The position numbers and the translations under genes were made by a program. Positions 3,789 through 19,847 of a stretch of 20,547 bases of DNA are shown piece by piece. How positions within the stretch are numbered: the stretch's first letter is position 1; each line of letters begins with the position of its first letter. The stretch is from a virus. The notes beneath the pieces are model-generated. The model did not search any database and was not told the origin of the DNA. It saw only the letters and a program-made list of their open reading frames with translations. The stretch is from the IMG/VR virus record IMGVR_UViG_3300034106_006647, positions 1-20,547 of that record; one strand, given 5' to 3'.

Positions 3789-4438
3789 AACTTTCTCCAT
3801 GTTCTCATAAATGGATTTGGAGCATGATTTTTGTTCGTGTTCCTAAAAATGCCAGCACTTCCATTTATTCACATCTTGGTGAGCATAATCTCATCAAAAA
3901 ACATGAGAAAATATTTATTGATGCCTTGTTCAAGAAAAAACTATATAAGAATTGGTTTTCTCCAACTCATGCAAAGCCAGACGAAATCTATGGAATTTTT
4001 GGAAGCATGGTGAAAAATTACATGTCCTTTGCTGTTGTGAGGAATCCATTTGATAGAGCCGTTTCCATGTTTCAATTCGCCAAAGAAAATCGCCTTGGGA
4101 CATTATATGAAGAATCAAACGATATTTCTTTCAAAGATTTTTGCGACATAATGAAAGAAAATCATTCAAATAATAATAAAGATTTTATTGCAATTCATCA
4201 GCAAACAGAGTGGTTTGATGGCGCATTCAAGCCAAATTTTATTCTCAGATTTGAGAATTTAAAAAATGATTTTCAAGAAATGCTCGATTTGTGTCAAATT
4301 AAACATATTACTGCCGACATTCCTCACAGCAATTCCTCCAACAGAACAGATTATAAAAATTATTACAATTCTAAAACCAAAAAGATAATTGAAAAAATCT
4401 TTGAAAAAGACCTTGACATATTCAAATACTCATATTAA
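3782..4438 (+). CDS. Sulfotransferase family protein
   Basis: A 218-residue protein with the two PAPS-binding signatures of the Sulfotransfer_2 type: the 5'-phosphosulfate loop RVPKNASTSI (residues 19-28, compare HIPKTAGTSI) and the 3'-phosphate motif VVRNPFDRAVSMF (residues 85-97). The mid-protein has Gln-Trp-Phe and LRFENLKNDFQEML, also usual for this family. Such enzymes move sulfate from PAPS to a hydroxyl of a sugar, lipid or protein. The ATG at 3782 is preferred over the in-frame TTG at 3773, since the motif begins at normal distance. A glycosyltransferase-like gene lies one small gene downstream, so a sugar acceptor is plausible but unproven. Sulfotransferases are known in marine phages. 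Confidence 0.85.
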   Translation: MLELSPCSHKWIWSMIFVRVPKNASTSIYSHLGEHNLIKKHEKIFIDALFKKKLYKNWFSPTHAKPDEIYGIFGSMVKNYMSFAVVRNPFDRAVSMFQFAKENRLGTLYEESNDISFKDFCDIMKENHSNNNKDFIAIHQQTEWFDGAFKPNFILRFENLKNDFQEMLDLCQIKHITADIPHSNSSNRTDYKNYYNSKTKKIIEKIFEKDLDIFKYSY

Positions 4439-4446
4439 GATATAAC

Positions 4447-4695
4447 ATGACTGGAAAAATTAAAATCATTGGCGCAAATAATCGCTCTCACCTTGATTGG
4501 ATGGAGATTGAATTTGAAAATTGTAATATGTGTCACGATGGAAACACATTGCATTATATTGAAGTTCCTGATCGTGGCAGGTTTCCCTTTGAGATTTATA
4601 AAACATTGGTCATTAGTGACCGATTTATATTTGAGGGTTACGCTCACATCGAAGATTCTCTTGGACGTTTGGCGATTGAATTCTTCCCGCAATGA
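4447..4695 (+). CDS. Hypothetical protein
   Basis: An 82-residue protein of unknown family. It has CNMC and a compact, mostly beta-like composition. It sits between the sulfotransferase (8-base gap) and the glycosyltransferase-like gene (ATGA overlap), so it is almost certainly co-translated with the latter. A reading frame on the opposite strand over the same bases is a shadow. The start is preceded by TATAAC with no ribosome site. Confidence 0.6.
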   Translation: MTGKIKIIGANNRSHLDWMEIEFENCNMCHDGNTLHYIEVPDRGRFPFEIYKTLVISDRFIFEGYAHIEDSLGRLAIEFFPQ

Positions 4696-5615
4696 AGTTT
4701 TTGCTCATTGATTCTCACAAAGGTTCCATAAAAGAACCTCAAAATCTTCACTGGCTTAACGCTAAAAAGATTAAGGATTTTTTAATTCAAAACGGTCATG
4801 AAGCTGATCTTGTTTGGAGCTATCCAACCGTCAATGACGAAATCAAGAGTGGATATGACCGAATCATCTTTAATCATGCGAGCCACTATTCGTATGTTGA
4901 CTATGCTTGGCTAAAAGCCAGTCCAGAAGCCAAGCTTTTTCATATCACAAATGAATACAACCTTGGAGAGCCTCGCGCCTTGTGGATGGCGGTGAAAGAA
5001 GGTCGCCGCTATGAAGTTATCGCTAATCACAGTCCAGACATCTCTAAAATCGTAGAAAAGTATGTGGACGATTGGCACTTTATCAATTTAAATTCATTAA
5101 TTTTTGACCCAAAAGAAACAAATAATGAAAAATCTGGTTGCGTTTATTACGGTTCTTTTCGTAAAGATCGCGAACCTTCATTCCGTAAATATTTAAAAGG
5201 CCGCGTAAAAGTCTCAACACATCAAAAAAACCGTGAAAAATTTAACACAATTGGAGTCAATGGCCCCTTCATTGACCGAATCAACTGGTCAAAAGAAGGA
5301 CTCTCTAATTTCGAGACTAGCCTCTATATTGAAGACGAAGTTAACCACAATAACTACAACTGTCTTGCTAACCGATTTTACGAAGCTCTCAATTATAACG
5401 TTCTTACTTTTTTCGACTATAGTTGTAAAAATACCATTGCCTTGTCTGGTTATGACGTACCTACTTATTGCGTGGTTAGTAGCGAGGAAGAATTAGTGGG
5501 GAAAACTCAATATTTATTCCCAGAAATTCGCGACTACTGCTTCCGTTCTTGGAAAGAAAAAGCAAAAGAAGAGTCCAAAAATACCTTGACAAGCATCCTT
5601 TCTGTAGTATTATAA
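4692..5615 (+). CDS. Glycosyltransferase-like protein (GT-B type)
   Basis: A 307-residue protein. The N-terminal half begins MKFLLIDSH, a Rossmann first strand, followed by a helix and NGHEADLVWSY, as in GT-B folds. The C-terminal half has YYGSFRKDRE (residues 152-161) and CLANRFYEALNYN (224-236), then a Phe-Phe-Asp strand; this asparagine-arginine-phenylalanine-tyrosine-glutamate helix is the donor-site helix seen in phage T4-type glucosyltransferases and related phage proteins. The sugar and acceptor cannot be read from sequence: phage DNA bases, lipopolysaccharide or capsid are options. It ends at a TAA lying inside the promoter of the next gene. Confidence 0.55.
   Translation: MKFLLIDSHKGSIKEPQNLHWLNAKKIKDFLIQNGHEADLVWSYPTVNDEIKSGYDRIIFNHASHYSYVDYAWLKASPEAKLFHITNEYNLGEPRALWMAVKEGRRYEVIANHSPDISKIVEKYVDDWHFINLNSLIFDPKETNNEKSGCVYYGSFRKDREPSFRKYLKGRVKVSTHQKNREKFNTIGVNGPFIDRINWSKEGLSNFETSLYIEDEVNHNNYNCLANRFYEALNYNVLTFFDYSCKNTIALSGYDVPTYCVVSSEEELVGKTQYLFPEIRDYCFRSWKEKAKEESKNTLTSILSVVL
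5586..5613 (+). promoter_or_regulatory. Sigma-70-like promoter, TTGACA-16-TATTAT
   Basis: TTGACA (5586-5591), 16 bases, TATTAT (5608-5613), inside the last codons of the glycosyltransferase-like gene. An alternative -10 is TATAAT at 5611-5616 with a 19-base gap. With the 16-base reading, transcription would start near 5619-5620, exactly at an in-frame GTG of the next gene. Its TTGACAAGCA core is shared with the promoter at 7196. Confidence 0.75.
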
Positions 5616-5672
5616 TTTGTGCTTAGGCACTCAATAACAAACCACAAACAAATAATAAAAGTAAAAAAAACC

Positions 5673-5918
5673 ATGAGCAATATTCTTGCCAAGGCAATTG
5701 AAAAGAGCAAGCCAGAACAGATTGACCTCTGTTGGGCAGTTCTAAAATACAAGGAAATCGGCGTTTTGCGCAAAATTAAAGCTCTATGTTCAGCCTTCGG
5801 CTTGGACTTGGAGCAAGTAACGTCAGAACTTCCCAAAGATGATAATGGTCGAATTATTGATTGGCAAACCCGCCACATGATTCACGACTCTCTTATCAAA
5901 ATGAGCAAAACTAACTAA
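5673..5918 (+). CDS. Hypothetical protein
   Basis: An 81-residue protein with no known family, beginning MSNILAKAIEKSKPEQIDLC. Two helices and a central GLDLEQVTSEL segment suggest a small helical fold, possibly DNA-contacting, but there is no clear helix-turn-helix. I took the ATG at 5673, which is preceded by a long adenine-rich leader without a ribosome site. An in-frame GTG at 5619 would add 18 residues and coincides with the predicted transcription start, so a leaderless 99-residue product is a real alternative. The leader contains a tiny GTGC/GCAC hairpin at 5619-5630. Confidence 0.65.
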   Translation: MSNILAKAIEKSKPEQIDLCWAVLKYKEIGVLRKIKALCSAFGLDLEQVTSELPKDDNGRIIDWQTRHMIHDSLIKMSKTN

Positions 5919-6368: not shown

Positions 6369-6601
6369 AAAAACTTTTGATTCTGCTATTGGTTAGCGGG
6401 TGCAGTCAGCAAAAGCCCGTTCCGCTTGAAAAGCTAGAACAACAGCCTCCCGAATTGTTTTTGCCGCCAAATACAGTGATTACAACAACTCAAGGAGTTT
6501 ACAAGAGCGGAAACTTTATTGAAATTTGGCATTCGCACAAGAAATATTCCAATCTTCAAAACGAAATCTCCAAGTTTAGACCTTTAACCTCTTCAAAATG
6601 A
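6365..6601 (+). CDS. Small proline-rich lipoprotein; possible outer-membrane spanin (Rz1-like)
   Basis: A 78-residue protein with a lipoprotein signal: KK, a short leucine core and the lipobox LVSGC, so Cys13 would become the lipidated first residue. The mature part begins with a proline-rich stretch (KPVPLEKLEQQPPELFLPPN), which is the hallmark of Rz1-type outer-membrane spanins. It overlaps the coiled-coil gene upstream and the sigma gene downstream by four bases each. Signal and lipobox are seen; the lysis role is inferred. A superinfection-exclusion lipoprotein is an alternative. Confidence 0.6.
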   Translation: MKKLLILLLVSGCSQQKPVPLEKLEQQPPELFLPPNTVITTTQGVYKSGNFIEIWHSHKKYSNLQNEISKFRPLTSSK

Positions 6602-7185
6602 GCGAATTTAAAGAAGAAAATCTTTGTGATTGGCAAAATAAAAAAAGTTGGGATTCGTTTTTTTCTCAATTTTATGATTATTTAAAGTCTCTTGCAATCT
6701 CATATAAGCTACCATCGCAAGATGTTGATGATGTTGTTCAAGAGGTTTTTATCTCTATGGCGAATTTCTTTAAAGAGAAGAAGTTTGACTCGTCAAAGGG
6801 TAATATTTATTCTTGGGTAACCACGTTTGCCAAGTGGAGAATGATTGACATTATTCGCCGCAACCAAAGAATGAACAAAAAAGTCACATCTGGAGACGAC
6901 TTGCTGCTGGAAATGCAGCCAGATGAGAATCAAGAAATTGACTCCATTATCGAGAAATCATATCGGCAAAATTTGTTCATTAAGGCGCTTAAAAATCTTA
7001 AACAGCAGCGCAAAAATAAGGACTATATGATTTTTAATGATATTCATTTTCAGAACTTGAGTAATGAAGAAGTCATGAACAAATATAAAGTAAATTGCGA
7101 TGCAATTTATCTTGCCAAGCATAGAATGATCAAGAAAATCAAAAAAGAAATCAATAATATATTGCGCCTAGAGCCGAACTATTAA
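6598..7185 (+). CDS. ECF-type RNA polymerase sigma factor
   Basis: A 195-residue two-domain sigma-70 family protein. Region 2 spans about residues 17-92: SWDSFFSQFYDYLKSLA, then DVDDVVQEVFISMANFF (core-binding helix), FDSSKGNIYSWV and WRMIDIIRRNQR (-10 reading helix). Region 4 spans about 130-185 with LSNEEVMNKYKVNCDAIYLA, a helix-turn-helix for the -35 element. The SW..FF start and the KG..YSW motif resemble sigma factors common in Verrucomicrobia and Planctomycetes. No anti-sigma gene is adjacent. It may direct polymerase to some phage promoters. It lies directly before the promoter at 7196, at the end of a run of four-base-overlapping genes. Confidence 0.85.
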   Translation: MSEFKEENLCDWQNKKSWDSFFSQFYDYLKSLAISYKLPSQDVDDVVQEVFISMANFFKEKKFDSSKGNIYSWVTTFAKWRMIDIIRRNQRMNKKVTSGDDLLLEMQPDENQEIDSIIEKSYRQNLFIKALKNLKQQRKNKDYMIFNDIHFQNLSNEEVMNKYKVNCDAIYLAKHRMIKKIKKEINNILRLEPNY

Positions 7186-7195
7186 CGCTTGTTTC

Positions 7196-7223
7196 TTGAC
7201 AAGCAGCAACAAGATGGTATAGT
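7196..7223 (+). promoter_or_regulatory. Promoter with start at or near the ATG (leaderless), TTGACA-16-TATAGT
   Basis: TTGACA (7196-7201), 16 bases, TATAGT (7218-7223), then only AAACC before the uvsE ATG at 7229. A normal start point 6-7 bases after the -10 falls on that ATG, so the mRNA would have no leader. It fills the 43-base gap between the sigma gene and uvsE. Confidence 0.8.
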
Positions 7224-7228
7224 AAACC

Positions 7229-8143
7229 ATGAACCTATCCCTTTGCTGCATCTCCAAAACATTGTCTGATAACGGGCAGAGCTTTCGCTCCATGACTTAC
7301 ACGCAGTTTGCCAAACTGCCTCGTAACACTGCTATTCAAGAGCTTTCTGAGCGCATCTTGCATAATTTCAAGATGACTCTCAATACTATTCGTTTTTGCC
7401 AGCTTAACAATATTCAAGGTTATCGTCTCTCATCTTCTCTCGCTCCAGTTTTGACGCACAAAGATGTTCGTCTTCGCATTGCAGATTTGCCAAATTACGC
7501 AAACATTGTTTCTGTTTGTGAGTCAATCAAGCAGCTTCTTCGTTCTCATCCTATTCGACTATCTGCTCACCCTAGCGAGTATATTACTCTATCCTCTAGC
7601 AATCAAGAATGTATTGACAACAGCATTCTTGACTTGCAGCAACATGCAGAGATTTTTGACCTGTTGGATTTGCCGCAAGATTATCGTTCGCCTCTCAACA
7701 TACACGTCAGGCAGGAAACAGCAGAGCCTCAAAAACTTGCTGATAAAGTTTTGAGCGTTTATGATTCCCTTCCCGACAACATTCGCCAGCGCCTTGTTCT
7801 TGAAAACAATGACAATGCCAAAGGTGTTTGGGGCATCAAGAATCTTATTAAATACTTTTTTAATTCGCGCAAGATTCCAGTTACTTACGACAACTTGCAT
7901 CATAGTATTTTGCACGACAATTTGAGCGCCGAAGAAGCCTTCAATCTTGCTTATGACACTTGGCCAACAAGTCCGTTGTTTCACTATAGCGAAGGTGTTG
8001 ACGGCACTCGCAAGCATGCTGATATGCCAGCTTCAATCCCTAACAACTATGGGCGTGACGTACTTTGGGATGTTGAGATGAAATTTAAGTGTCAAGCTAT
8101 TTTCCGCATTCGCGAGTTGACAAAGCAAAAAATCTCTGCATAA
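7229..8143 (+). CDS. uvsE: UV DNA damage endonuclease UvsE/UvdE
   Basis: A 304-residue protein of normal UVDE length, a TIM barrel that nicks DNA just 5' of UV photoproducts and other lesions using two or three metal ions. Seen motifs: YRLSSSLAPVLTH (residues 65-77), LSAHPSEYI (111-119), NIHV (157-160), LENND with metal-binding Glu (191-195), YDNLHH (220-225), HYSEG (252-256) and DVLWDVEMKFK (277-287). All expected metal-site residues seem present, so it should be active. Some phages carry it to repair their own DNA in the sunlit environment. The ATG lies five bases after a -10 element, implying a leaderless transcript. Confidence 0.93.
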   Translation: MNLSLCCISKTLSDNGQSFRSMTYTQFAKLPRNTAIQELSERILHNFKMTLNTIRFCQLNNIQGYRLSSSLAPVLTHKDVRLRIADLPNYANIVSVCESIKQLLRSHPIRLSAHPSEYITLSSSNQECIDNSILDLQQHAEIFDLLDLPQDYRSPLNIHVRQETAEPQKLADKVLSVYDSLPDNIRQRLVLENNDNAKGVWGIKNLIKYFFNSRKIPVTYDNLHHSILHDNLSAEEAFNLAYDTWPTSPLFHYSEGVDGTRKHADMPASIPNNYGRDVLWDVEMKFKCQAIFRIRELTKQKISA

Positions 8144-8144
8144 T
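8117..8144 (+). promoter_or_regulatory. Promoter with start at or near the ATG (leaderless), TTGACA-16-CATAAT
   Basis: TTGACA (8117-8122) in the 3' end of uvsE, 16 bases, CATAAT (8139-8144), then ATAAGT and the ATG at 8151. The -10 differs from consensus only in its first base. A start 7 bases after it would coincide with the ATG. Confidence 0.65.
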
Positions 8145-8150
8145 ATAAGT

Positions 8151-8735
8151 ATGATCAAGAACTTTTGGTATAAAAAACCCCACAGTCTCGAATGGAATCC
8201 GCACGATGACACCGTTGGCTGGACAGCTTGGGAAAAAGAAACAAAAAAGAACCATCCCGTTCAATACTTCTTCCGCGAAGAAGTCACCACTTTTTTCCGC
8301 ATTAAATGGATGCGGTTCCAAACTTTTAAATACAAAATTAAATGCTTTTTCTTCCCCAAGCATCAAGAGCTTCGCAAAGCTATTCCTCGCACTTGGGTTG
8401 ATATTGCAAATCTTGTTGTTGATCTTAATTTTGCAATGATTCTTAGTTTCAAGAAAGAGGCTGATGAATCATGGGTTGATTGGGATGCAACTCCAGAACA
8501 ACGCAAATTCAAGAATTGGCTTGATTCTTCCGCTCATTGGATTACTGTTGGCAAACCAAATTGTGAATCACAAGCAAACGCTCTTTATCCTCCGCATCCT
8601 CTTACAGACCTTCAAAAGGGCAAATCCTATGAAGAACTCTATGGAGAGCTTAATAAAATGGAGAAACTCATTAGCGAGACTGACACCAACATTCTCAAGC
8701 AAATGATTGAATACCGTGACTACATGTGGACATGA
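8151..8735 (+). CDS. Conserved phage protein of unknown function
   Basis: A 194-residue protein. The pattern of IPRTWVDIANLVVDLNFAMI, then VDWDATPEQRKF and a C-terminal ETDTNILKQMIEYRDYMWT ending in Trp-Thr resembles a protein family found widely in phages with no known role: an acidic W-D segment, a helical hairpin, and a final R..LWT-like motif. The N-terminal 75 residues are basic and aromatic. No enzyme motif is visible. Its ATG lies six bases after a -10 element (leaderless). The stop overlaps the next start (ATGA). Confidence 0.7.
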   Translation: MIKNFWYKKPHSLEWNPHDDTVGWTAWEKETKKNHPVQYFFREEVTTFFRIKWMRFQTFKYKIKCFFFPKHQELRKAIPRTWVDIANLVVDLNFAMILSFKKEADESWVDWDATPEQRKFKNWLDSSAHWITVGKPNCESQANALYPPHPLTDLQKGKSYEELYGELNKMEKLISETDTNILKQMIEYRDYMWT

Positions 8736-8893
8736 AAATTAATAAAGAAAAACTCTATCAACTCTACATGCAAGAAGTGGAGGCCATTTGTGAAGTGTGC
8801 GATTTAAAAACAAGTTTTACAGCGCAAGAATGTGTGTACATTGTGTCACACCTCTTGGAAAGAAATCCAGATTTAATTAAATATGAATCATAA
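8732..8893 (+). CDS. Small hypothetical protein (53 aa)
   Basis: A 53-residue frame beginning MKINKEKLYQLYMQEVEAIC. It starts in an ATGA overlap with the gene before and runs 11 bases into the gene after, which closes an otherwise empty 147-base gap; the packing supports it as real. It is helical, with CEVC and one more Cys. No family is recognised. Confidence 0.55.
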   Translation: MKINKEKLYQLYMQEVEAICEVCDLKTSFTAQECVYIVSHLLERNPDLIKYES

Positions 8894-9206
8894 AACAATT
8901 GTCACCATCATTGCTGCAATCTATGTTGTTTCCACAGCAATCATCATTGCTGTTAATTATAACAGTTCACAAGACCAGAGCCAAACCCAAGAGATTATCA
9001 AAAATATCAAAATCTCTCCAGAAGCTTTGCGACCAGCAAAGACCTTGCAGGAATTTATTAATGAATTGCCAGACGGCAGTTTGAAATCTAATCTCATGAT
9101 TGTCATCGGTACAGAATATAGCGGCGATAGCCAACAACTAAATGAAATTTTACAAGCTTACGCAAAACTTAAAATCAAAGAAATCGAAAGAAGTAATAAG
9201 CTATAA
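8883..9206 (+). CDS. Membrane-anchored small protein
   Basis: A 107-residue protein with one N-terminal membrane segment (IVTIIAAIYVVSTAIIIAV, about residues 5-23) after a short basic start, so probably N-in with the rest outside the inner membrane. The rest is a soluble helical domain. The family is unknown. There is no lipobox. It precedes thyX by two bases but shows no functional link to it. Confidence 0.6.
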   Translation: MNHKTIVTIIAAIYVVSTAIIIAVNYNSSQDQSQTQEIIKNIKISPEALRPAKTLQEFINELPDGSLKSNLMIVIGTEYSGDSQQLNEILQAYAKLKIKEIERSNKL

Positions 9207-9208
9207 AT

Positions 9209-9892
9209 ATGACTAATAAAATTCAGTTAATCGGCCACTATGGAAGCGACGAAGTGATTGCTTGCTCAGCCTGGACTAGCACTAGCCGAGATATTACAGA
9301 AGATAAGCGTGAACGTATTCCTAAACTTATCAACATGCTATGGAGTAATGGTCATGAAACTCCATTTGAAAAAGGAGTCGTGCATTTTCTTATAGACTGC
9401 GACATCGCTTCGCACGTTCATCTTTTAAAACACCGAATTTCTAGCCTTAATGCTGAATCAGCACGCTATAAAGAACTAAAAGAAGATAAGTTTTACATTC
9501 CTAATGACTGGAAAGAAATTAAAGTTACAAATAGTGTTACTTCAGAATGTTATGAAGAATTTGTTTTTGCAGCTAATGATGAAGATTGGCAAGATGTACT
9601 TGAAAGATATACAAAGCTAGGCAATGATCTTTATCATCAATGTATTAGAGATATTGAACCCGTTCTTGGTCGCAAACGCGCCAAGGAATCAGCTAGATAT
9701 TTTAAGACTTATAATTCACAAATTCAATCAGACCTAATGTTTAACATGCGTAGTTTTGCGAATTTTCTAAAGCTTAGAAAAAGCGAGCACGCTCAAAAAG
9801 AAATTCACGATATTGCTTCCACTATGCTTGATCTTGTCAAAAACATCGAAGGCAATCCTTTCAAATATACACTTGACGCTTTTGGATATTAA
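9209..9892 (+). CDS. thyX: Flavin-dependent thymidylate synthase ThyX
   Basis: A 227-residue protein of normal ThyX length. It makes dTMP from dUMP using FAD, NADPH and methylenetetrahydrofolate. The diagnostic RHRx7S motif is present as KHR-ISSLNAE-S (residues 74-84), with the first Arg replaced by Lys, followed by ARY. Other marks are HETPFEKG (49-56), NMRSFANFLKLR (179-190) and AQKEI (195-199), which help bind FAD and dUMP. ThyX in phages supplies thymidine during replication. The Arg-to-Lys change in the motif is conservative; activity is likely but not certain. The start is preceded by TATAAAT one base away, without a ribosome site. Confidence 0.93.
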   Translation: MTNKIQLIGHYGSDEVIACSAWTSTSRDITEDKRERIPKLINMLWSNGHETPFEKGVVHFLIDCDIASHVHLLKHRISSLNAESARYKELKEDKFYIPNDWKEIKVTNSVTSECYEEFVFAANDEDWQDVLERYTKLGNDLYHQCIRDIEPVLGRKRAKESARYFKTYNSQIQSDLMFNMRSFANFLKLRKSEHAQKEIHDIASTMLDLVKNIEGNPFKYTLDAFGY

Positions 9893-9900
9893 GCTATAAT
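9873..9900 (+). promoter_or_regulatory. Promoter with start at or near the ATG (leaderless), TTGACG-16-TATAAT
   Basis: TTGACG (9873-9878) in the end of thyX, 16 bases, perfect TATAAT (9895-9900), AGAAT, then ATG at 9906. The start point would fall within a base or two of the ATG. Confidence 0.75.
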
Positions 9901-9905
9901 AGAAT

Positions 9906-10163
9906 ATGCAACAAAATTGGCAAAACATTATAGAAATCATGCTTGATGAGGCTAGAGGCTTTGTTGCAGCTAAATTTGTAAAAGATTTTAATCTTACACC
10001 ATCAATGATGGCTACAACGTTGATGGTTTTATTCAATAAATTCATTGATTCAATACCAGAGCAGCATCAACGTGACGCTGAACAGATGGTTCTTGAAATA
10101 TTTAATTTTTCTGTTGATAAAAGATTTGAATACATTAATGTAGAAAAACATGAACACAGTTAA
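9906..10163 (+). CDS. Hypothetical protein, paralogue of the gene at 19868
   Basis: An 85-residue helical protein of unknown family. Its C-terminal two thirds align by eye with the protein at 19868: LTPSMMATTLMVLFNKFIDS then IPEQHQ against FDPVFIAGSLVSLYEAFLSH then VPESKQ, and both end in a serine before the stop. Both overlap the following gene by exactly 14 bases, and both follow a CTATAATA sequence. It is expressed from a leaderless-type promoter. Confidence 0.65.
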   Translation: MQQNWQNIIEIMLDEARGFVAAKFVKDFNLTPSMMATTLMVLFNKFIDSIPEQHQRDAEQMVLEIFNFSVDKRFEYINVEKHEHS

Positions 10164-10584
10164 CCACTACACAGACTTTGCCAATGCAGAAAAATACGCC
10201 AAAGATTATCATGCGGTTATTTCTCTTGGGCATTTTCTACCAGAACAGTTTCGTGAAAGAAAGAAGTATTTGTTTCTAGACTTTGAAGATATTACATTTG
10301 ATCAAATACATGTTACTGGAGCTACATTTAAAGATTGTCCTAATGAAGGGCATGTTCGCCAGATTATCGAATTTGTTCGAGAGCTTGCGCCAGTTGATAA
10401 ACTGCTAGTTCACTGCATGGCGGGCTACAGCAGAAGCCCTGCCGCAGTAATCATTGCAAAGTGTGAACGTGATGGAAAAACTATTCATGATGCTAAACAA
10501 GAGCTATATGATGCTAGAATTCCTGACAAGCTGGTGCCAAACCCGAACGACATTATGCTGCACAATTATCTAATGATCAAATAA
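10150..10584 (+). CDS. Dual-specificity (tyrosine-type) protein phosphatase
   Basis: A 144-residue protein with the cysteine phosphatase signature HCMAGYSRS (His88, Cys89, Arg95: HCx5R followed by Ser). The N-terminal part holds HAVISLGHFLPEQF and FLDFEDITFDQI, which in this family carries the general acid Asp. Length fits phage and bacterial dual-specificity phosphatases. It could remove phosphate from host or phage proteins, or from a nucleotide or RNA 5' end; the substrate is unknown. It overlaps the gene before by 14 bases and is expected on the same transcript. Confidence 0.85.
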   Translation: MNTVNHYTDFANAEKYAKDYHAVISLGHFLPEQFRERKKYLFLDFEDITFDQIHVTGATFKDCPNEGHVRQIIEFVRELAPVDKLLVHCMAGYSRSPAAVIIAKCERDGKTIHDAKQELYDARIPDKLVPNPNDIMLHNYLMIK

Positions 10585-10585
10585 T

Positions 10586-10831
10586 ATGGCAAGTTATACT
10601 ATTCAACGACATACATGCGACCATTGTGGTTTGGTTTTTGACGAAAGCAAAGAATCAGGTTTTATTCCTAGCGGCGGTCCCAAGAATTGGAGCAAGTGGG
10701 ACAAAGTTATTAATCCTGTAAAACAAGTTGGAACTCCATCATATTTTTATAGCACAAATCATTCATTAGAATTTTGCAACTATGATTGTGCTATAAGCTG
10801 GATGCAAAAAGAAAAAGAAAGACTTTCATGA
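10586..10831 (+). CDS. Small zinc-binding-type protein
   Basis: An 81-residue protein with CDHC near the start and FCNYDC later (CxxC and CxxxC), the right number of cysteines for one structural zinc. The domain reads HTCDHCGLVFDES then EFCNYDCAISWM, similar in layout to small treble-clef or zinc-ribbon proteins in phages. No DNA-binding residues can be named. It starts directly after the phosphatase gene and shares an ATGA overlap with the next gene. Confidence 0.6.
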   Translation: MASYTIQRHTCDHCGLVFDESKESGFIPSGGPKNWSKWDKVINPVKQVGTPSYFYSTNHSLEFCNYDCAISWMQKEKERLS

Positions 10832-11022
10832 AAATCGGCCCAAGAGAATACAACGATCAAGAGACTGCTATCATTGAAGTTTACAAGAGTCATATTCAAT
10901 ATCTTCAAGAAGAAATTGATGAACATTGGAAAATGCTCATTGAACAATTAAATATTCCTGACAGACTTCCAAATCCAGAAACAGACAGTCTTTGGGATTA
11001 CGTTATAAACGATTTTAAATAA
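10828..11022 (+). CDS. Hypothetical protein
   Basis: A 64-residue protein starting at the ATG in the ATGA overlap; the longer frame from 10786 lies inside the previous gene and is not needed. It is mostly helical (AIIEVYKSHIQYLQEEIDEH), with no recognised family. Confidence 0.55.
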   Translation: MKIGPREYNDQETAIIEVYKSHIQYLQEEIDEHWKMLIEQLNIPDRLPNPETDSLWDYVINDFK

Positions 11023-11127
11023 AAATATGATAAAAAATAAAACTAATTCAATATCATATTTTTTGCCAGTATATATTTTCTCTGCAAACAAATGTCTGAA
11101 TTCTGACCATATAAAAGTTCAGCAATT

Positions 11128-11238
11128 TTAGAAGTTTCTTTTTGGATAAAAAGAACCATCTGCCAAAAAAAATCCTAAAAACCATGCCCATTCAAGCTTG
11201 ACAAGTACATCTGATTCGTTTATATTATGACGTTTCAT
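11128..11238 (-). pseudogene. Possible LAGLIDADG-like fragment or small antisense gene
   Basis: In the only sizeable gap (11023-11251) the minus strand has a 36-residue frame from ATG 11238 whose end reads LEWAWFLGFFLADGSFYPKR. This has the helix-turn shape of a LAGLIDADG motif (WFLG-x-x-x-ADGSF). The frame ends at 11128; downstream, other frames continue with plausible protein (SKIAELLYGQNSDI in a shifted frame), which would fit a decayed homing endonuclease. It overlaps the plus-strand promoter at 11198, so one of the two may be chance. The call rests on a single short motif. Confidence 0.3.
11198..11226 (+). promoter_or_regulatory. Promoter TTGACA-17-TATATT
   Basis: TTGACA (11198-11203), 17 bases, TATATT (11221-11226), with TTGACAAG as in the promoters at 5586 and 7196. 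Start of transcription is expected near 11233, leaving about a 19-base AT-rich leader without a ribosome site before the ATG at 11252. Confidence 0.7.
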
Positions 11239-11251
11239 ATTTAATATTATC

Positions 11252-11989
11252 ATGAAAGACGCTAAAAATCAAATAATTTTTATTGGAGACATCCATGGAA
11301 ACTATTCCAAACTTAATTACGATATTGGTCGATATAATCATCGTGATTCATATTTATTTATATTGGGAGATGTTGGCGTAGGCTTCCACAAGCCTAATTA
11401 TTATAAAACTGAATTCAGTAATTTGAATAAACAATTAATAGAGAGAAATATTCATCTTTATGCGGGAAAAGGAAATCATGACAATCCCGACTACTTCCGC
11501 GAGACAAATAATCCTTTTGATTTAAGTAATATAACCTTACTCAAGGATTATTCAGAGCTAAATTTATTATCTCAAAATATTCTTTGGGTAGGAGGAGCTA
11601 TCAGTATTGATAGAGCATGGAGAATTAAAGAAAACGAAAAGCTTCAAAAACATGGAGACGAAAGACGTTTATGGTGGCCTGATGAAGTTTTTGTTTATCA
11701 AGACGATTTCGATTATAAAAAATATGATATTGTCGCGACTCATACTCGTCCAGCTAATTGCGGAGCTTTTAAGGGATTTGACAATATCAAAATATTCTTG
11801 GATGGTGACGGCACCCTCAAAGAAGAGCTTATTCAAGAAAGCATGGATATGGAAAAACTTTGGGACAAAACCAAACCTAAATACTGGTACTTCGCTCATT
11901 TCCATCAGTCTTTAGTTACTGAATATGAAGGCACAGTTTTTCGCTGCCTTAATATTGACGAGCATTTTGAACACAGAATTGAAAAATAA
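11252..11989 (+). CDS. Calcineurin-type metallophosphoesterase
   Basis: A 245-residue protein with all the blocks of the family in order: GDIHGN (Asp13, His15), GDVGVG (39-44), GNHD (74-77), ATHTRP (162-167) and AHFH (215-218). These residues bind two metal ions and would make it an active phosphatase or phosphodiesterase. Substrates of the family include phosphoproteins, cyclic nucleotides, dinucleoside polyphosphates and RNA ends; none can be chosen here. It has its own promoter and is followed by the holin-like gene after 27 bases. Confidence 0.9.
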   Translation: MKDAKNQIIFIGDIHGNYSKLNYDIGRYNHRDSYLFILGDVGVGFHKPNYYKTEFSNLNKQLIERNIHLYAGKGNHDNPDYFRETNNPFDLSNITLLKDYSELNLLSQNILWVGGAISIDRAWRIKENEKLQKHGDERRLWWPDEVFVYQDDFDYKKYDIVATHTRPANCGAFKGFDNIKIFLDGDGTLKEELIQESMDMEKLWDKTKPKYWYFAHFHQSLVTEYEGTVFRCLNIDEHFEHRIEK

Positions 11990-12016
11990 ATCTATTTTTT
12001 AAGTGTAAAGAATTGT

Positions 12017-12196
12017 ATGATTACTTGGATTCTCACTCACCAACTTGACATTGTTCATGCTGTTACAGCAGTTATTGCTGCTTTTTCAGCTATTGCTGCT
12101 CTCACTCCCACTCCTAAAGACGACACTTGGGCTGGCAAGCTTTACAAGGTTGTTGATTGGCTCGCTTTGAATGTTGGCAAGGCTAAAGATAAATAA
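12017..12196 (+). CDS. Small membrane protein, holin-like
   Basis: A 59-residue protein. Residues about 12-30 (IVHAVTAVIAAFSAIAALT) form one membrane segment, followed by TPTPKDDTWAGKLYKVVDWL and a lysine-rich C-terminus. The pattern of one alanine-rich membrane helix, TPTPKDD and a basic tail resembles small phage proteins annotated as holins, but I cannot be sure of the role. It is followed by the terminator hairpin at 12230. Confidence 0.65.
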   Translation: MITWILTHQLDIVHAVTAVIAAFSAIAALTPTPKDDTWAGKLYKVVDWLALNVGKAKDK

Positions 12197-12229
12197 AACC
12201 TCTCTTACAAACTTTGAGTTGTAGGACGC

Positions 12230-12255
12230 AGAGCGGCTCTATTTGGAGCCGCTCT
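12230..12255. terminator. Convergent transcription terminator hairpin
   Basis: A perfect 10-base inverted repeat, AGAGCGGCTC (12230-12239) and GAGCCGCTCT (12246-12255), with loop TATTTG. It lies between the plus-strand holin-like gene and the minus-strand HExxH gene, whose TAG stop (12239-12241) sits in the hairpin. It is GC-rich against the AT-rich surroundings. The T tract on the plus side (TTGCATTTT) is weak, so efficiency is uncertain. A smaller imperfect hairpin lies at 12205-12220. Confidence 0.75.
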
Positions 12256-12904
12256 TGCATTTTCGGTCATATCTGCGAAAAAGCTCAAAATATTTCTCAG
12301 ACAAGTTCTCAAATTTACCGAGTATTTTTTGCGGGAAATTTCTATAAAAACATTTGTTTTTAATTTTTACAGACTCAGAAATCCACTTTCTTGAGTGCGC
12401 CATATACAAATAAGAAAACATATAAGCATTAGCAGACTGAGCATACTCTTCTGGCGAAATAACGTGCGACCATCTTTTTTTTATTTTTTTAATCGAACGT
12501 CTTTCACAATCAGATTCAAGAGAGATCACATGTTTGGCGCTCTCTGTTGGATTTTTAATGTTTTTTGTCTTTGATAACCAATCAAAAAAACTATTAAAAT
12601 TACGAGCAACTGTCTCATTATACCAGATTGATTGGCTATCCAACCATTGATCAAAATGAGAATCCTCATGAACCAGTGTGGCAATCACCCATTTTAAGGG
12701 CTTGTTGACTGCAATAGCCAACTCTCTCGGAGAATCAGAAAAGAATCCGCCACAGCGGCCTCCGCCCGAATACACTGCCCTGCCTCCTGAGACACGAAAT
12801 TGAACGCCAGATTTTTTGCACTTGTCATCAATTTCTTGAAAATAATCCTGAACATCTTTTGGAAAAGAGTTTAAAATAGCGCGAGCTTTCTTGTCTATTT
12901 TCAC
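12239..12904 (-). CDS. HExxH zinc metalloprotease-like protein
   Basis: A 221-residue protein starting at GTG (MKIDKK). It has LVHEDSHFDQW with HExxH (His79, Glu80, His83) and, downstream, LESDCERRSIKKI (about 129-141), whose acidic residues may give the third zinc ligand. This LVHExxH / ExDCERR pair is known from a group of phage and bacterial proteins of unknown role. It is the only plus-to-minus switch in the middle of the window: convergent with the holin-like gene, and divergent from the oxygenase gene with 34 bases between the starts. That gap holds ACGCT-AGA-AGCGT, a possible operator. A peptidase function is inferred. Confidence 0.65.
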   Translation of the reverse strand: MKIDKKARAILNSFPKDVQDYFQEIDDKCKKSGVQFRVSGGRAVYSGGGRCGGFFSDSPRELAIAVNKPLKWVIATLVHEDSHFDQWLDSQSIWYNETVARNFNSFFDWLSKTKNIKNPTESAKHVISLESDCERRSIKKIKKRWSHVISPEEYAQSANAYMFSYLYMAHSRKWISESVKIKNKCFYRNFPQKILGKFENLSEKYFELFRRYDRKCKSGSK

Positions 12905-12938
12905 GATAGTATTTACACGCTAGAAGCGTATCTCTTGC

Positions 12939-13745
12939 ATGAAAAAGACCAGCTTTGACGATTCTTGGAAATTTTGGATTTGGGATAATGTGAGGAGAGG
13001 TTCGCCTAAACGAGAATTGGCCGAAATTCTGCTGGAAAAAGGGTTTGATAAACAACTCATTATTAATGAATTCGGACTGCCAAATCTTTTCCAAACTGAT
13101 TCCTCTGCCCCAATTCTCAAAATTGAGAATATTCTCAAAAATAATAATGCCGAAAGACTTTCGGACAAATTAAACATCTTTAAAATCAAAAACGTCTTGA
13201 CAGAAGGGCAGTGTTTGAAAACCATTGAAGTGATCAAAGAAAAATGCCAAAAATCTTCCGTCATTGATTATGACAATGGCGGAAGTAAAATTTCAGACTT
13301 TCGCACAAGTTCAACTGCTCATTTGTTTCGCAAAACTAATCCAATCGTTTCTGAAATTGAAGACGCGATTTTAAATATTGTTGATATTCCAGAAAAATAC
13401 AGCGAGCAAATTCAAGGCCAATACTACAAAGTTGGCGAACAATTTAAGCCTCATTTTGATTCGCTTTTTTCTTTAACCGATGAGCAGAAACGTCAAGTTG
13501 AATTGCATGGCAATCGCACATGGACCGCCATGATTTACTTAAACAACACTCCTAAAGGTGGCTATACACGTTTTACAGAAATTGATTTGGAAACAAAACC
13601 AGAAATGGGAACCATGATTTTGTGGCAAAACACAAGAGACGGCTCAAATATTCCTGAATCAAAACATTGGGGAATGCCAGTGGAAGATGGCGAAAAATTC
13701 ATTTTAACAAAATGGTTTCGCGAAAAACCTTATCAAAACATTTGA
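12939..13745 (+). CDS. 2-oxoglutarate/Fe(II)-dependent oxygenase, prolyl-4-hydroxylase type
   Basis: A 268-residue protein. The C-terminal catalytic domain has the iron triad: His172 and Asp174 in FKPHFDSLF and His243 in SKHWG; Lys253, ten residues after His243, would hold 2-oxoglutarate. Supporting motifs are RTSSTAHLF, QYYKVGEQFKPHFD, WTAMIYLN and KGGYTRF. The N-terminal 50 residues (KFWIWDNVRRG, LAEILLEKGF) form a short domain common in front of this oxygenase in environmental bacteria. It may hydroxylate proline or another residue of a phage or host protein. Such genes are known in marine phages. The stop lies inside the next promoter. Confidence 0.9.
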   Translation: MKKTSFDDSWKFWIWDNVRRGSPKRELAEILLEKGFDKQLIINEFGLPNLFQTDSSAPILKIENILKNNNAERLSDKLNIFKIKNVLTEGQCLKTIEVIKEKCQKSSVIDYDNGGSKISDFRTSSTAHLFRKTNPIVSEIEDAILNIVDIPEKYSEQIQGQYYKVGEQFKPHFDSLFSLTDEQKRQVELHGNRTWTAMIYLNNTPKGGYTRFTEIDLETKPEMGTMILWQNTRDGSNIPESKHWGMPVEDGEKFILTKWFREKPYQNI

Positions 13746-13769
13746 CTTCTCCAAAAACACCTCTATATT
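13742..13769 (+). promoter_or_regulatory. Promoter with start at or near the ATG (leaderless), TTGACT-16-TATATT
   Basis: TTGACT (13742-13747) overlapping the stop codon of the oxygenase gene, 16 bases, TATATT (13764-13769), AAGAGC, then ATG at 13776. Geometry is the same as at 7196, 8117 and 9873. Confidence 0.65.
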
Positions 13770-13775
13770 AAGAGC

Positions 13776-13865
13776 ATGGATATACTTATCAGCTTCATTC
13801 TAATGTTCGTCGCCGCACTATCCGCCAAAGAACCCTTTTTTGAAATTATTTTTAAACGACAATGA
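13776..13865 (+). CDS. Very small membrane protein (29 aa)
   Basis: A 29-residue frame (MDILISFILMFVAALSAKEP and nine more) whose first 16 residues are almost wholly hydrophobic, enough for one membrane span. It is supported by a promoter whose start point should fall on its ATG and by a four-base overlap with the next gene. No family is recognised. It may be a membrane peptide or only serve to couple translation of the next gene. Confidence 0.55.
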   Translation: MDILISFILMFVAALSAKEPFFEIIFKRQ

Positions 13866-17658: not shown

Positions 17659-17838
17659 ATGTTTGATCCTCCAAATAAAGAATATGATGAAGTAACTATA
17701 GCGGTAGATTTATCTACACTTATTGAGTACTATGTTAAAGATTTTGAAGTAAAGGATGGCAAAGTAATAAGTTATGAATGGGCTATCAACCCTATAACTA
17801 ATAAAGTTATCTTTGTATTAACCACACAAAACAAATGA
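17659..17838 (+). CDS. Small hypothetical protein (59 aa)
   Basis: A 59-residue frame beginning MFDPPNKEYDEVTIAVDLST. It ends in an ATGA overlap with the first YopX gene, which supports it. The YEWAIN and VIFVLTT strands suggest a small beta fold. Family unknown. Confidence 0.55.
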   Translation: MFDPPNKEYDEVTIAVDLSTLIEYYVKDFEVKDGKVISYEWAINPITNKVIFVLTTQNK

Positions 17839-18215
17839 ATAGACAACTAAAATTCCGCATTTGGGATAAACAGAATAAAAAGTGGATTTATGAATGGGAT
17901 GCTTCACATCAACGCTTAGCAATCTCTTTGGTGGGTCTAGTTTATCATGGCGGTTATGATAATGTTTTGCCAGAAAATGATTATGTTATCCAGCAATACA
18001 CTGGATTGAAAGACTCCAAAGGAAATGACATTTACGAAGGCGATATTGTTTCTGGTTCCTTTTACGACGAAGAATACCGTCATGCTGAGACTATAAAACA
18101 CGAAGTTGTATTTAATAACGGAGCGTTTAATATCGCTTCAAGAAATTGGCACAAACCTTCTTTAAAAGTTATTGGCAACATCTTCGAAACGAAAAAAGAC
18201 AATAACAATGAATAG
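17835..18215 (+). CDS. YopX-family phage protein (copy 1)
   Basis: A 126-residue protein with the YopX hallmarks: FRIWDKQNKKW at the start, QQYTGLKDSKGNDIYEGDIV in the middle, and LKVIGNIFE at the end. YopX proteins are common in phages of many hosts; their role is unknown. It overlaps the 59-residue gene before it by four bases and its paralogue after it by eight. Confidence 0.9.
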   Translation: MNRQLKFRIWDKQNKKWIYEWDASHQRLAISLVGLVYHGGYDNVLPENDYVIQQYTGLKDSKGNDIYEGDIVSGSFYDEEYRHAETIKHEVVFNNGAFNIASRNWHKPSLKVIGNIFETKKDNNNE

Positions 18216-18663
18216 ATTTAAATTCCGAATCTGGGATAAACAGAATAAAAATTGGCTAAAAAATAGCAGCAGTTTTCATTGCTACAGCAATTGGGCAATT
18301 TGCCCATTCACAGGCAATCTTGTTGATTATGTTGGAGATTATGGCTGCGATAGCTTTACATCTTCTCCTGCTGTTGATTATTATTTTGAAGGAGCAGAAA
18401 TCGTCAAAGAACCAAGATACGTTATTCAGCAATATACTAGATTGAAGGACAAAAATGGAAAAGAAATTTACGAAGGCGACATTCTAAAATATAGCGATCT
18501 TTATTACGAAGTGATGTGGGCTGACTATCGGTGGATTGCTACATGTCCTTATTATAATCGTTATCATTGGCCCAAATTTGAATCTTTTGGTCGAGAGGCT
18601 AGAGCATCTATGGTATCTGGCAATATTTTTGAGAACTCTGAACTAATTAAAAACAATGAATAA
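18208..18663 (+). CDS. YopX-family phage protein (copy 2)
   Basis: A 151-residue protein, a tandem paralogue of the gene at 17835. It repeats FRIWDKQNKNW, QQYTRLKDKNGKEIYEGDIL and VSGNIFEN. Compared with copy 1 it has an extra block of about 25 residues in the middle (CPFTGNLVDYVGDYGCDSF) with two cysteines. I took the ATG at 18208, where the motif begins; upstream codons belong to copy 1. The same ATGAATA(G/A) overlap joins it to both neighbours. Confidence 0.9.
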   Translation: MNRFKFRIWDKQNKNWLKNSSSFHCYSNWAICPFTGNLVDYVGDYGCDSFTSSPAVDYYFEGAEIVKEPRYVIQQYTRLKDKNGKEIYEGDILKYSDLYYEVMWADYRWIATCPYYNRYHWPKFESFGREARASMVSGNIFENSELIKNNE

Positions 18664-19079: not shown

Positions 19080-19847
19080 ATGCAAAAATATTATAAACTT
19101 CTCTCTCAAGAAATGACTAGCCATAATGATACAAAATGGGAAATCGGAGTTCCTATTTTTGTCTCAAAGCAGGGCAATGAGATGTGTACAGATCAAGTAT
19201 TACATTGTTATAATCATCCAATGTTGGCAGTCATTTTTAATCCAATTCATGCTAATATTAGAAAACCAAAGCTTTTTGAGATTCAAGTTGATGGGATTTG
19301 TAATAATGATGGATTAAAATTTGCCAGTAAAAGCCAAACATTAATCAAGGAAATCAGTCTTCCTGAAATCTCTCTTGAACAAAAAATAGAATTTGCCATC
19401 AAGGTGGCAAAATTAGTATATAAAAATGGGTCATGGAACTCTTGGGCAGACAAATGGTTAGATGGTAGTGATCGCACTGTTGCTGCTGCTGATGCTGCTC
19501 ATGCTGCTGCTGATGCTGCTGCTGATGCTGCTGCTTATGCTCATGCTTATGCTGCTTATGCTGCTGCTGATGCTGCTGCTGATGCTGCTAATGCTGCTGA
19601 TGCTGCTGCTCATGCTGCTGCTGATTATGCTGCTGCTCATGCTGCTGCTCATGCTGCTCATGCTGCTGCTGATGCTGCTGCTCATGCTGCTGCTGCTGAT
19701 GCTGATTATGCTGCTGCTCATGCTTATGCTGCTTATGCTCATGCTGCTTCTGCTGTTGCTGATGCTGCTGATGCTGCTGCTTATGCTGGCAAGAGAGAAG
19801 AATTTAATCAAAAAATGATCAATATTGTCGAAGAAATTGTGGGATAA
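19080..19847 (+). CDS. Alanine-rich repeat protein
   Basis: A 255-residue protein from ATG 19080; an upstream in-frame start at 19029 lies in the gene before. Residues 1-134 are a normal domain with MCTDQVLHCYNHPM, resembling the N-terminal domain of small phage proteins with an (E)MC..G(L)H.C pattern that often carry alanine-rich tails. Residues 135-236 are 102 residues of low-complexity sequence: 70 Ala, 12 Asp, 9 His, 8 Tyr and one each of Asn, Ser and Val. A short normal tail follows (GKREEFNQKMINIVEEIVG). The tail should be helical. Function unknown. Confidence 0.75.
   Translation: MQKYYKLLSQEMTSHNDTKWEIGVPIFVSKQGNEMCTDQVLHCYNHPMLAVIFNPIHANIRKPKLFEIQVDGICNNDGLKFASKSQTLIKEISLPEISLEQKIEFAIKVAKLVYKNGSWNSWADKWLDGSDRTVAAADAAHAAADAAADAAAYAHAYAAYAAADAAADAANAADAAAHAAADYAAAHAAAHAAHAAADAAAHAAAADADYAAAHAYAAYAHAASAVADAADAAAYAGKREEFNQKMINIVEEIVG
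19482..19787 (+). repeat. GCT/NAT codon repeat tract
   Basis: A run of 102 codons, all ending in T: GCT (Ala) in runs of one to four separated by GAT, CAT, TAT or AAT, with one TCT and one GTT. GCT runs equal CTG/CAG repeats, which form hairpins and slip easily in replication. All the non-alanine residues except two are one NAT codon family. Confidence 0.9.

Follow-up and report, generated by a model that had tools for sequence, protein, structure and literature searches.

The cI mRNA that phage lambda makes from PRM is a leaderless phage transcript that begins at its AUG, as do the transcripts predicted below, but lambda does this for one gene and relies on Shine-Dalgarno (SD) sites elsewhere. 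The late promoters of phage T4, in which a single -10-like element is read by the phage sigma factor gp55, provide a model for the GTGTAA element described here, although the sequence differs and T4 genes carry SD sites. In the Thermus phage phiYS40, most middle and late transcripts are leaderless according to the summary of Sevostyanova 2007 in PMC3594737, and the same source presents evidence for a rise of IF2 and a fall of IF3. Cells of Deinococcus-Thermus commonly express genes from a -10 box adjoining the open reading frame, and expression is higher when a -35 box is present at 17 bp (PMC12340547).

The viral lineage examined here shares features with both of the latter systems. Like phiYS40, it consists of tailed phages with many leaderless mRNAs (here predicted from sequence), and the first 50 kb of phiYS40 also show a small peak of start codons 6–7 nt from the -10 box. 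However, SD matches precede 0.51 of phiYS40 starts versus 0.24 in the control, whereas the present lineage stays at control level and shows no SD retention of the phiYS40 type; it also differs in having two motif classes locked to the start codon together with sigma-70 family genes. A -10 box placed a few bp ahead of the reading frame would, as in Deinococcus-Thermus, yield a leaderless mRNA, but that system is cellular and depends little on sequence beyond the -10 box (PMC12340547), whereas the promoters here are viral and have strong -35 boxes. The principle of leaderless expression is already known; what is new is the lack of SD sites combined with a two-class layout. The first-pass annotation of this DNA had called repeated leaderless genes unusual in a phage, which is only partly right given the mostly leaderless middle and late mRNAs that PMC3594737 summarises for phiYS40.

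Viral window and relatives

The window is a whole virus record of 20,547 bases (GC 37%). Its minus strand encodes lambda-type tail proteins, and its gene content also includes a sulfotransferase, a sigma-70 family factor, a UvdE-type UV endonuclease, ThyX, a phosphatase-like protein, and a 2OG-Fe(II) oxygenase. Searches of the window for tRNAs and Rfam families gave zero matches for either. The sigma factor (6598..7185, plus strand; 195 aa; Sigma70_r2, PF04542, E=1.2e-10) is a possible candidate reader of one of the promoter classes described below. Several longer relatives have a second sigma factor, and in one of them (G001) a sigma factor gene is near the terminase.

More than 100 viral contigs were gathered as relatives using four protein queries, and 16 contigs including the window (1.07 Mb in total) were analysed whole or almost whole; some of the contigs are fragments, and gene starts were taken from a simple ORF rule. 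The viral genomes of the lineage have 31–42% GC. No match of UvdE, tail protein L, or TerL to a named phage reached 60% identity, and the sigma factor had no match, so that there is no close isolate among them. PhiYS40 was absent from the named-phage matches listed, in searches that were not aimed at it. A literature search found no paper on this virus lineage.

Several other features of these genomes were recorded. At 2767–2770, a CATG forms the overlapping start codons of the divergent tail protein L gene (minus strand) and a plus-strand gene from 2768, with zero intergenic DNA. The adjacent genes at 17835–18663 have similar N-termini, and the second matches YopX. At 19460–19800, GCTGCTGATGCT-like units repeat in tandem over a long stretch, where they encode runs of Ala/Asp/His/Tyr close to the C-terminal end of a DUF7666 protein. 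Terminase frames of 1050–1480 aa occur in three relatives (L163:14443-17637, L196:9407-12556, and L201:3994-8433) versus ~620 aa in their kin, which suggests inteins or other insertions.

Promoters adjoining start codons in the window

Five arrangements of a -35-like box, a 16-bp spacer, and a -10-like box close to a start codon had been reported in the first-pass annotation, and their coordinates, hexamers, and spacers were all exact on recheck. The -10 box ends 5 nt (7196, 9873) or 6 nt (8117, 13742) before an ATG, and 5 nt before a GTG at 5586. As had also been stated, four of the five -35 boxes (5586, 8117, 9873, and 13742) are located within the end of the gene before them or span it, and the box at 7196 is intergenic. 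We refer to this arrangement as class A; all of its sites in the window are on the plus strand.

The UvdE-like endonuclease gene (7229–8143) is preceded by a predicted leaderless promoter, TTGACA-16-TATAGT-5-ATG (7196..7231), whose boxes are conserved column by column. Among 20 distinct relatives, conservation was 0.70–0.95 across TTGACA and 0.80/0.95/0.85 at the TA...T positions of the -10 box, against mostly 0.3–0.6 in the spacer. Gene 8151–8735 has a predicted promoter of the same kind, TTGACA-16-CATAAT-6-ATG (8117..8153), with its -35 box within the end of the UvdE gene; this promoter is retained in relatives, even in one whose upstream sequence differs (L016). Within thyX lies the -35 box of a third predicted site, TTGACG-16-TATAAT-5-ATG (9873..9908), which serves gene 9906–10163 and has counterparts in relatives. 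In four contigs (L091, L003, L011, and L013) a phosphatase-like gene directly follows thyX, and the promoter in the thyX tail again stands 5 nt before its start. The fourth, TTGACT-16-TATATT-6-ATG (13742..13778), precedes a 29-codon ORF (13776–13865), and its -35 box shares bases with the stop codon of the 2OG oxygenase gene; three relatives (L055, L087, and L033) retain the TTGAC position, with a varying -10 box. A direct count added a sixth site absent from the earlier list, TTGACA-17-TAAGAT-5-ATG (4413..4449), before gene 4447–4695; the TAA stop of the sulfotransferase gene lies within its -10 box, and TTGAC plus TAnnnT-5-ATG is retained in many relatives. The gene at 4692 has no class A promoter in the window, but its homologues in L081, L083, and L086 have their own TTGAC...TATATT...ATG.

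Could A+T-rich sequence simply yield TATA-like boxes beside ATGs, from which the best were picked? The GC content of 37% would favour this, and the window's total of promoter-like sites exceeds expectation only moderately (88 versus 62 +/- 7.7). By contrast, the window holds six TTGAC-16/17-TATAAT-like-5/6-ATG/GTG arrangements, and 1000 dinucleotide shuffles averaged 0.40 and never exceeded 3, so that none matched the observed count. The pattern also repeats in relatives and before unrelated genes (see below). We consider chance refuted by the shuffles, by the distance peak in relatives, and by the unrelated protein clusters, and its remaining probability negligible; the earlier argument that the pattern is not accidental now has a shuffle comparison behind it.

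The leaderless reading proposed for all five sites finds strong support in sequence comparisons at 7196, 8117, 9873, and 13742, but not at 5586. There, TTGACA is kept in 17 relatives, most of which have in-frame stops between the promoter and a conserved ATG at 5673, which rules out GTG 5619 as a leaderless start. The promoter TTGACA-16-TATTAT (5586..5613, plus strand) would thus express gene 5673–5918 through a leader of ~53 nt. The leader region (5614–5672) is A-rich and G-poor, has no SD, and is A-rich in relatives too. For two other strong promoter-like sites, at 11198 and 19035, the predicted leaders are short (about 19 and 11 nt); some promoters of the window are thus not leaderless.

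Class A across the lineage

In the 16 contigs, -10 boxes stood most often 5 or 6 nt from an ATG/GTG. Each of the three kinship groups showed this sharp peak, many times the background (38+14 of 185, 12+14 of 86, and 41+41 of 225 promoter hits), with mostly a few hits per position at other distances and no peak in shuffled sequence. The class A motif precedes 103 of 2199 gene-start ATGs versus 44 of 34,234 other ATGs. A count of all hexamers at all distances, made independently of gene calls, also recovered TTGACA at 28 nt before ATG. Comparison of relatives shows conserved -35 and -10 boxes with a drifting spacer, and the 16-bp spacer that had been described as constant holds for the five window sites but not for the lineage, where it is 16 bp in 99 genes, 17 in 55, and 18 in 9.

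Since the tallies include related genomes, we also report cluster counts. The 151 genes preceded by class A fall into 97 protein clusters that show no detectable similarity to one another, which rules out shared descent of one upstream region as the explanation. The encoded proteins include a clamp loader, DNA polymerase, RuvB-like and UvdE proteins, and one Gad1-like anti-Gabija protein (E=7e-75) from a relative. In two relatives of 148–165 kb (L175-L176 and L194-L195), a dense block of small genes was observed, many of which have their own predicted leaderless promoter.

With TTGACA and TATAAT 16–18 bp apart, class A has the form of a sigma-70 promoter, and the peak at 5 and 6 nt agrees with the spacing of leaderless promoters (-10 box about 5–7 nt from the start codon). 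Against a general leaderless rule, only about a third of the strong promoters in the lineage (36 of 109) had a start codon at 5–6 nt, and the window itself has the leader-bearing promoters at 5586, 11198, and 19035.

Predicted transcription start and absence of Shine-Dalgarno sites

Bacterial transcription favours a purine at +1 preceded by a pyrimidine at -1, and class A start codons show this initiator-like context. The base at -1, which played no part in choosing the sites, was C at 49 of 80 class A starts versus 232 of 1125 other starts (p=5e-14), and a pyrimidine at 70 of 80 versus 687 of 1125 (p=5e-7). The pyrimidine enrichment was equal whether the gap was 5 or 6 nt, which fits a transcription start that tracks the ATG.

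SD sites were measured as matches of at least 4 bases before starts relative to a shifted control, with the same script for all genomes. They were at or near control level in the window (0.03 versus 0.06) and in G001 (0.15 versus 0.16), as well as in G016, G007, G011, G013, and G015. In contrast, T4 gave 0.63 versus 0.15, and four more distant UvdE-bearing phage loci (L034, L035, L043, and L045) gave 0.56 versus 0.07. Because SD sites are present in these distant phages and absent here, the SD-free state belongs to this lineage, where it probably follows the host. Among genes with neither class A nor the class B motif described below, 563 of 1135 overlap an upstream stop or start within 15 nt of one.

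These data bear on a further explanation, that ordinary promoters crowd the starts of genes in a compact genome and give short leaders with weak or hidden SD sites. It would account for the many class A promoters within the tail of the preceding gene and for the 11–55 nt leaders of some window promoters. However, it would predict a broad spread of distances and not a peak only 2 nt wide, and both the SD frequency at control level and the enriched -1 pyrimidine argue against it. We regard this explanation as improbable, and favour promoters placed so that transcription would begin on the start codon.

A second element, GTGTAA

The same hexamer count showed GTGTAA 29 times at 8 nt and 21 times at 9 nt before ATG, with 3.9 expected, and GTGTAA at 8 nt was the top hexamer-distance pair apart from a coding repeat. 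This repeat, TCTGTA-type hexamers with the highest count, recurs at 12-nt steps and was set aside as a coding tandem repeat and not a signal. The GTGTAA motif (class B) precedes 41 gene-start ATGs versus 15 other ATGs, and GTGTAA-8/9-start was found for 66 genes in 36 unrelated protein clusters. Their products include tail fibre, tail spike, minor tail, and other virion proteins, but also homing endonucleases and an RNR subunit.

Two copies lie in the window. GTGTAA-8-ATG (12003..12019, plus strand) precedes a small membrane protein gene (12017–12196) and is conserved even in distant relatives. GTGTAA-8-GTG (12902..12918, minus strand) precedes gene 12904–12239, and GTGTAA (TGTAA in the most distant) occurs at this place in 12 relatives. 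The latter gene diverges from the 2OG oxygenase gene with 34 bp between start codons, and this intergenic stretch (12905–12938) holds its GTGTAA together with a conserved TTACAC...CGTAT for the oxygenase gene.

Class B probably serves as a late promoter read by a phage sigma factor, with early and late timing judged from gene content alone. GTGTAA may instead be no promoter at all, and mark translation starts or serve as an operator ahead of late genes; no conserved -35 partner was seen upstream of it, and a -1 pyrimidine at 25 of 33 class B starts is not a significant enrichment (p=0.10). On the other hand, its distance fits a -10 box with transcription starting at the ATG, virion genes lie downstream, and the lineage encodes sigma factors. 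A non-promoter role for GTGTAA is thus the less likely reading, though a serious one, and we continue to treat class B as a probable promoter.

Proposed mechanism

Very probably, judging from sequence, this lineage makes leaderless mRNAs from two promoter classes. We have considerable confidence in the fuller reading, in which class A would be used by the host sigma factor, class B would act through GTGTAA, and translation would initiate at a 5'-terminal AUG without SD sites. The host's RNA polymerase would read TTGACA-16/17-TATAAT through its primary sigma factor, and the -10 box 5–6 nt before the start codon would make the A of ATG the first transcribed base, a position that we infer from the spacing and the -1 pyrimidine. 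The ribosome would then initiate at the 5'-terminal AUG with no SD contact, and the later genes of each cluster may be translated through overlap or tight spacing, likewise without SD. GTGTAA-8/9-ATG would do the same for tail, other virion, and some other genes with a phage-encoded sigma factor late in infection. Whether this extends to the entire lineage, with replication and takeover genes under host-sigma promoters, virion and other genes under phage-sigma promoters, both kinds placing +1 on the start codon, and all further genes tightly coupled without SD contacts, is a tentative proposal to which we give slightly less than an even chance.

Clues to the host

TerL relatives were found in bins labelled Flavobacteriaceae, Flavobacteriales, and Verrucomicrobiales. 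Two sampled bins showed no leaderless peak, and we therefore claim no host. Verrucomicrobiota genomes contained 51 exact TTGACA-16/17-TATAAT-5/6-ATG arrangements versus 25 at 10–11 nt, which is too weak to name a host. Bacteroidota-type promoters have the form TAnnTTTG, which the class A consensus does not match. A cyanobacterial host was considered via psbA and rejected, as there was none in 10 contigs, and phage-borne ribosomal protein S21 was considered as a translation switch and likewise rejected, with none in 25 contigs.

Implications

These uncultured bacterial viruses, with promoters abutting genes that have no ribosome-binding site, probably have an unusual start of protein synthesis. 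The 151 class A and 66 class B genes with predicted leaderless starts are a large testable set in phages seemingly without SD initiation, of use for start-codon annotation of uncultured phages and as a clue to a host bacterium that tolerates SD-free initiation. If the entire lineage is SD-free, the host ribosome, or a ribosome altered by the phage, would have 5'-terminal AUG initiation as its main route. The lineage may thus offer a natural system for 5'-terminal AUG initiation and for the separation of early and late transcription without 5' UTRs.
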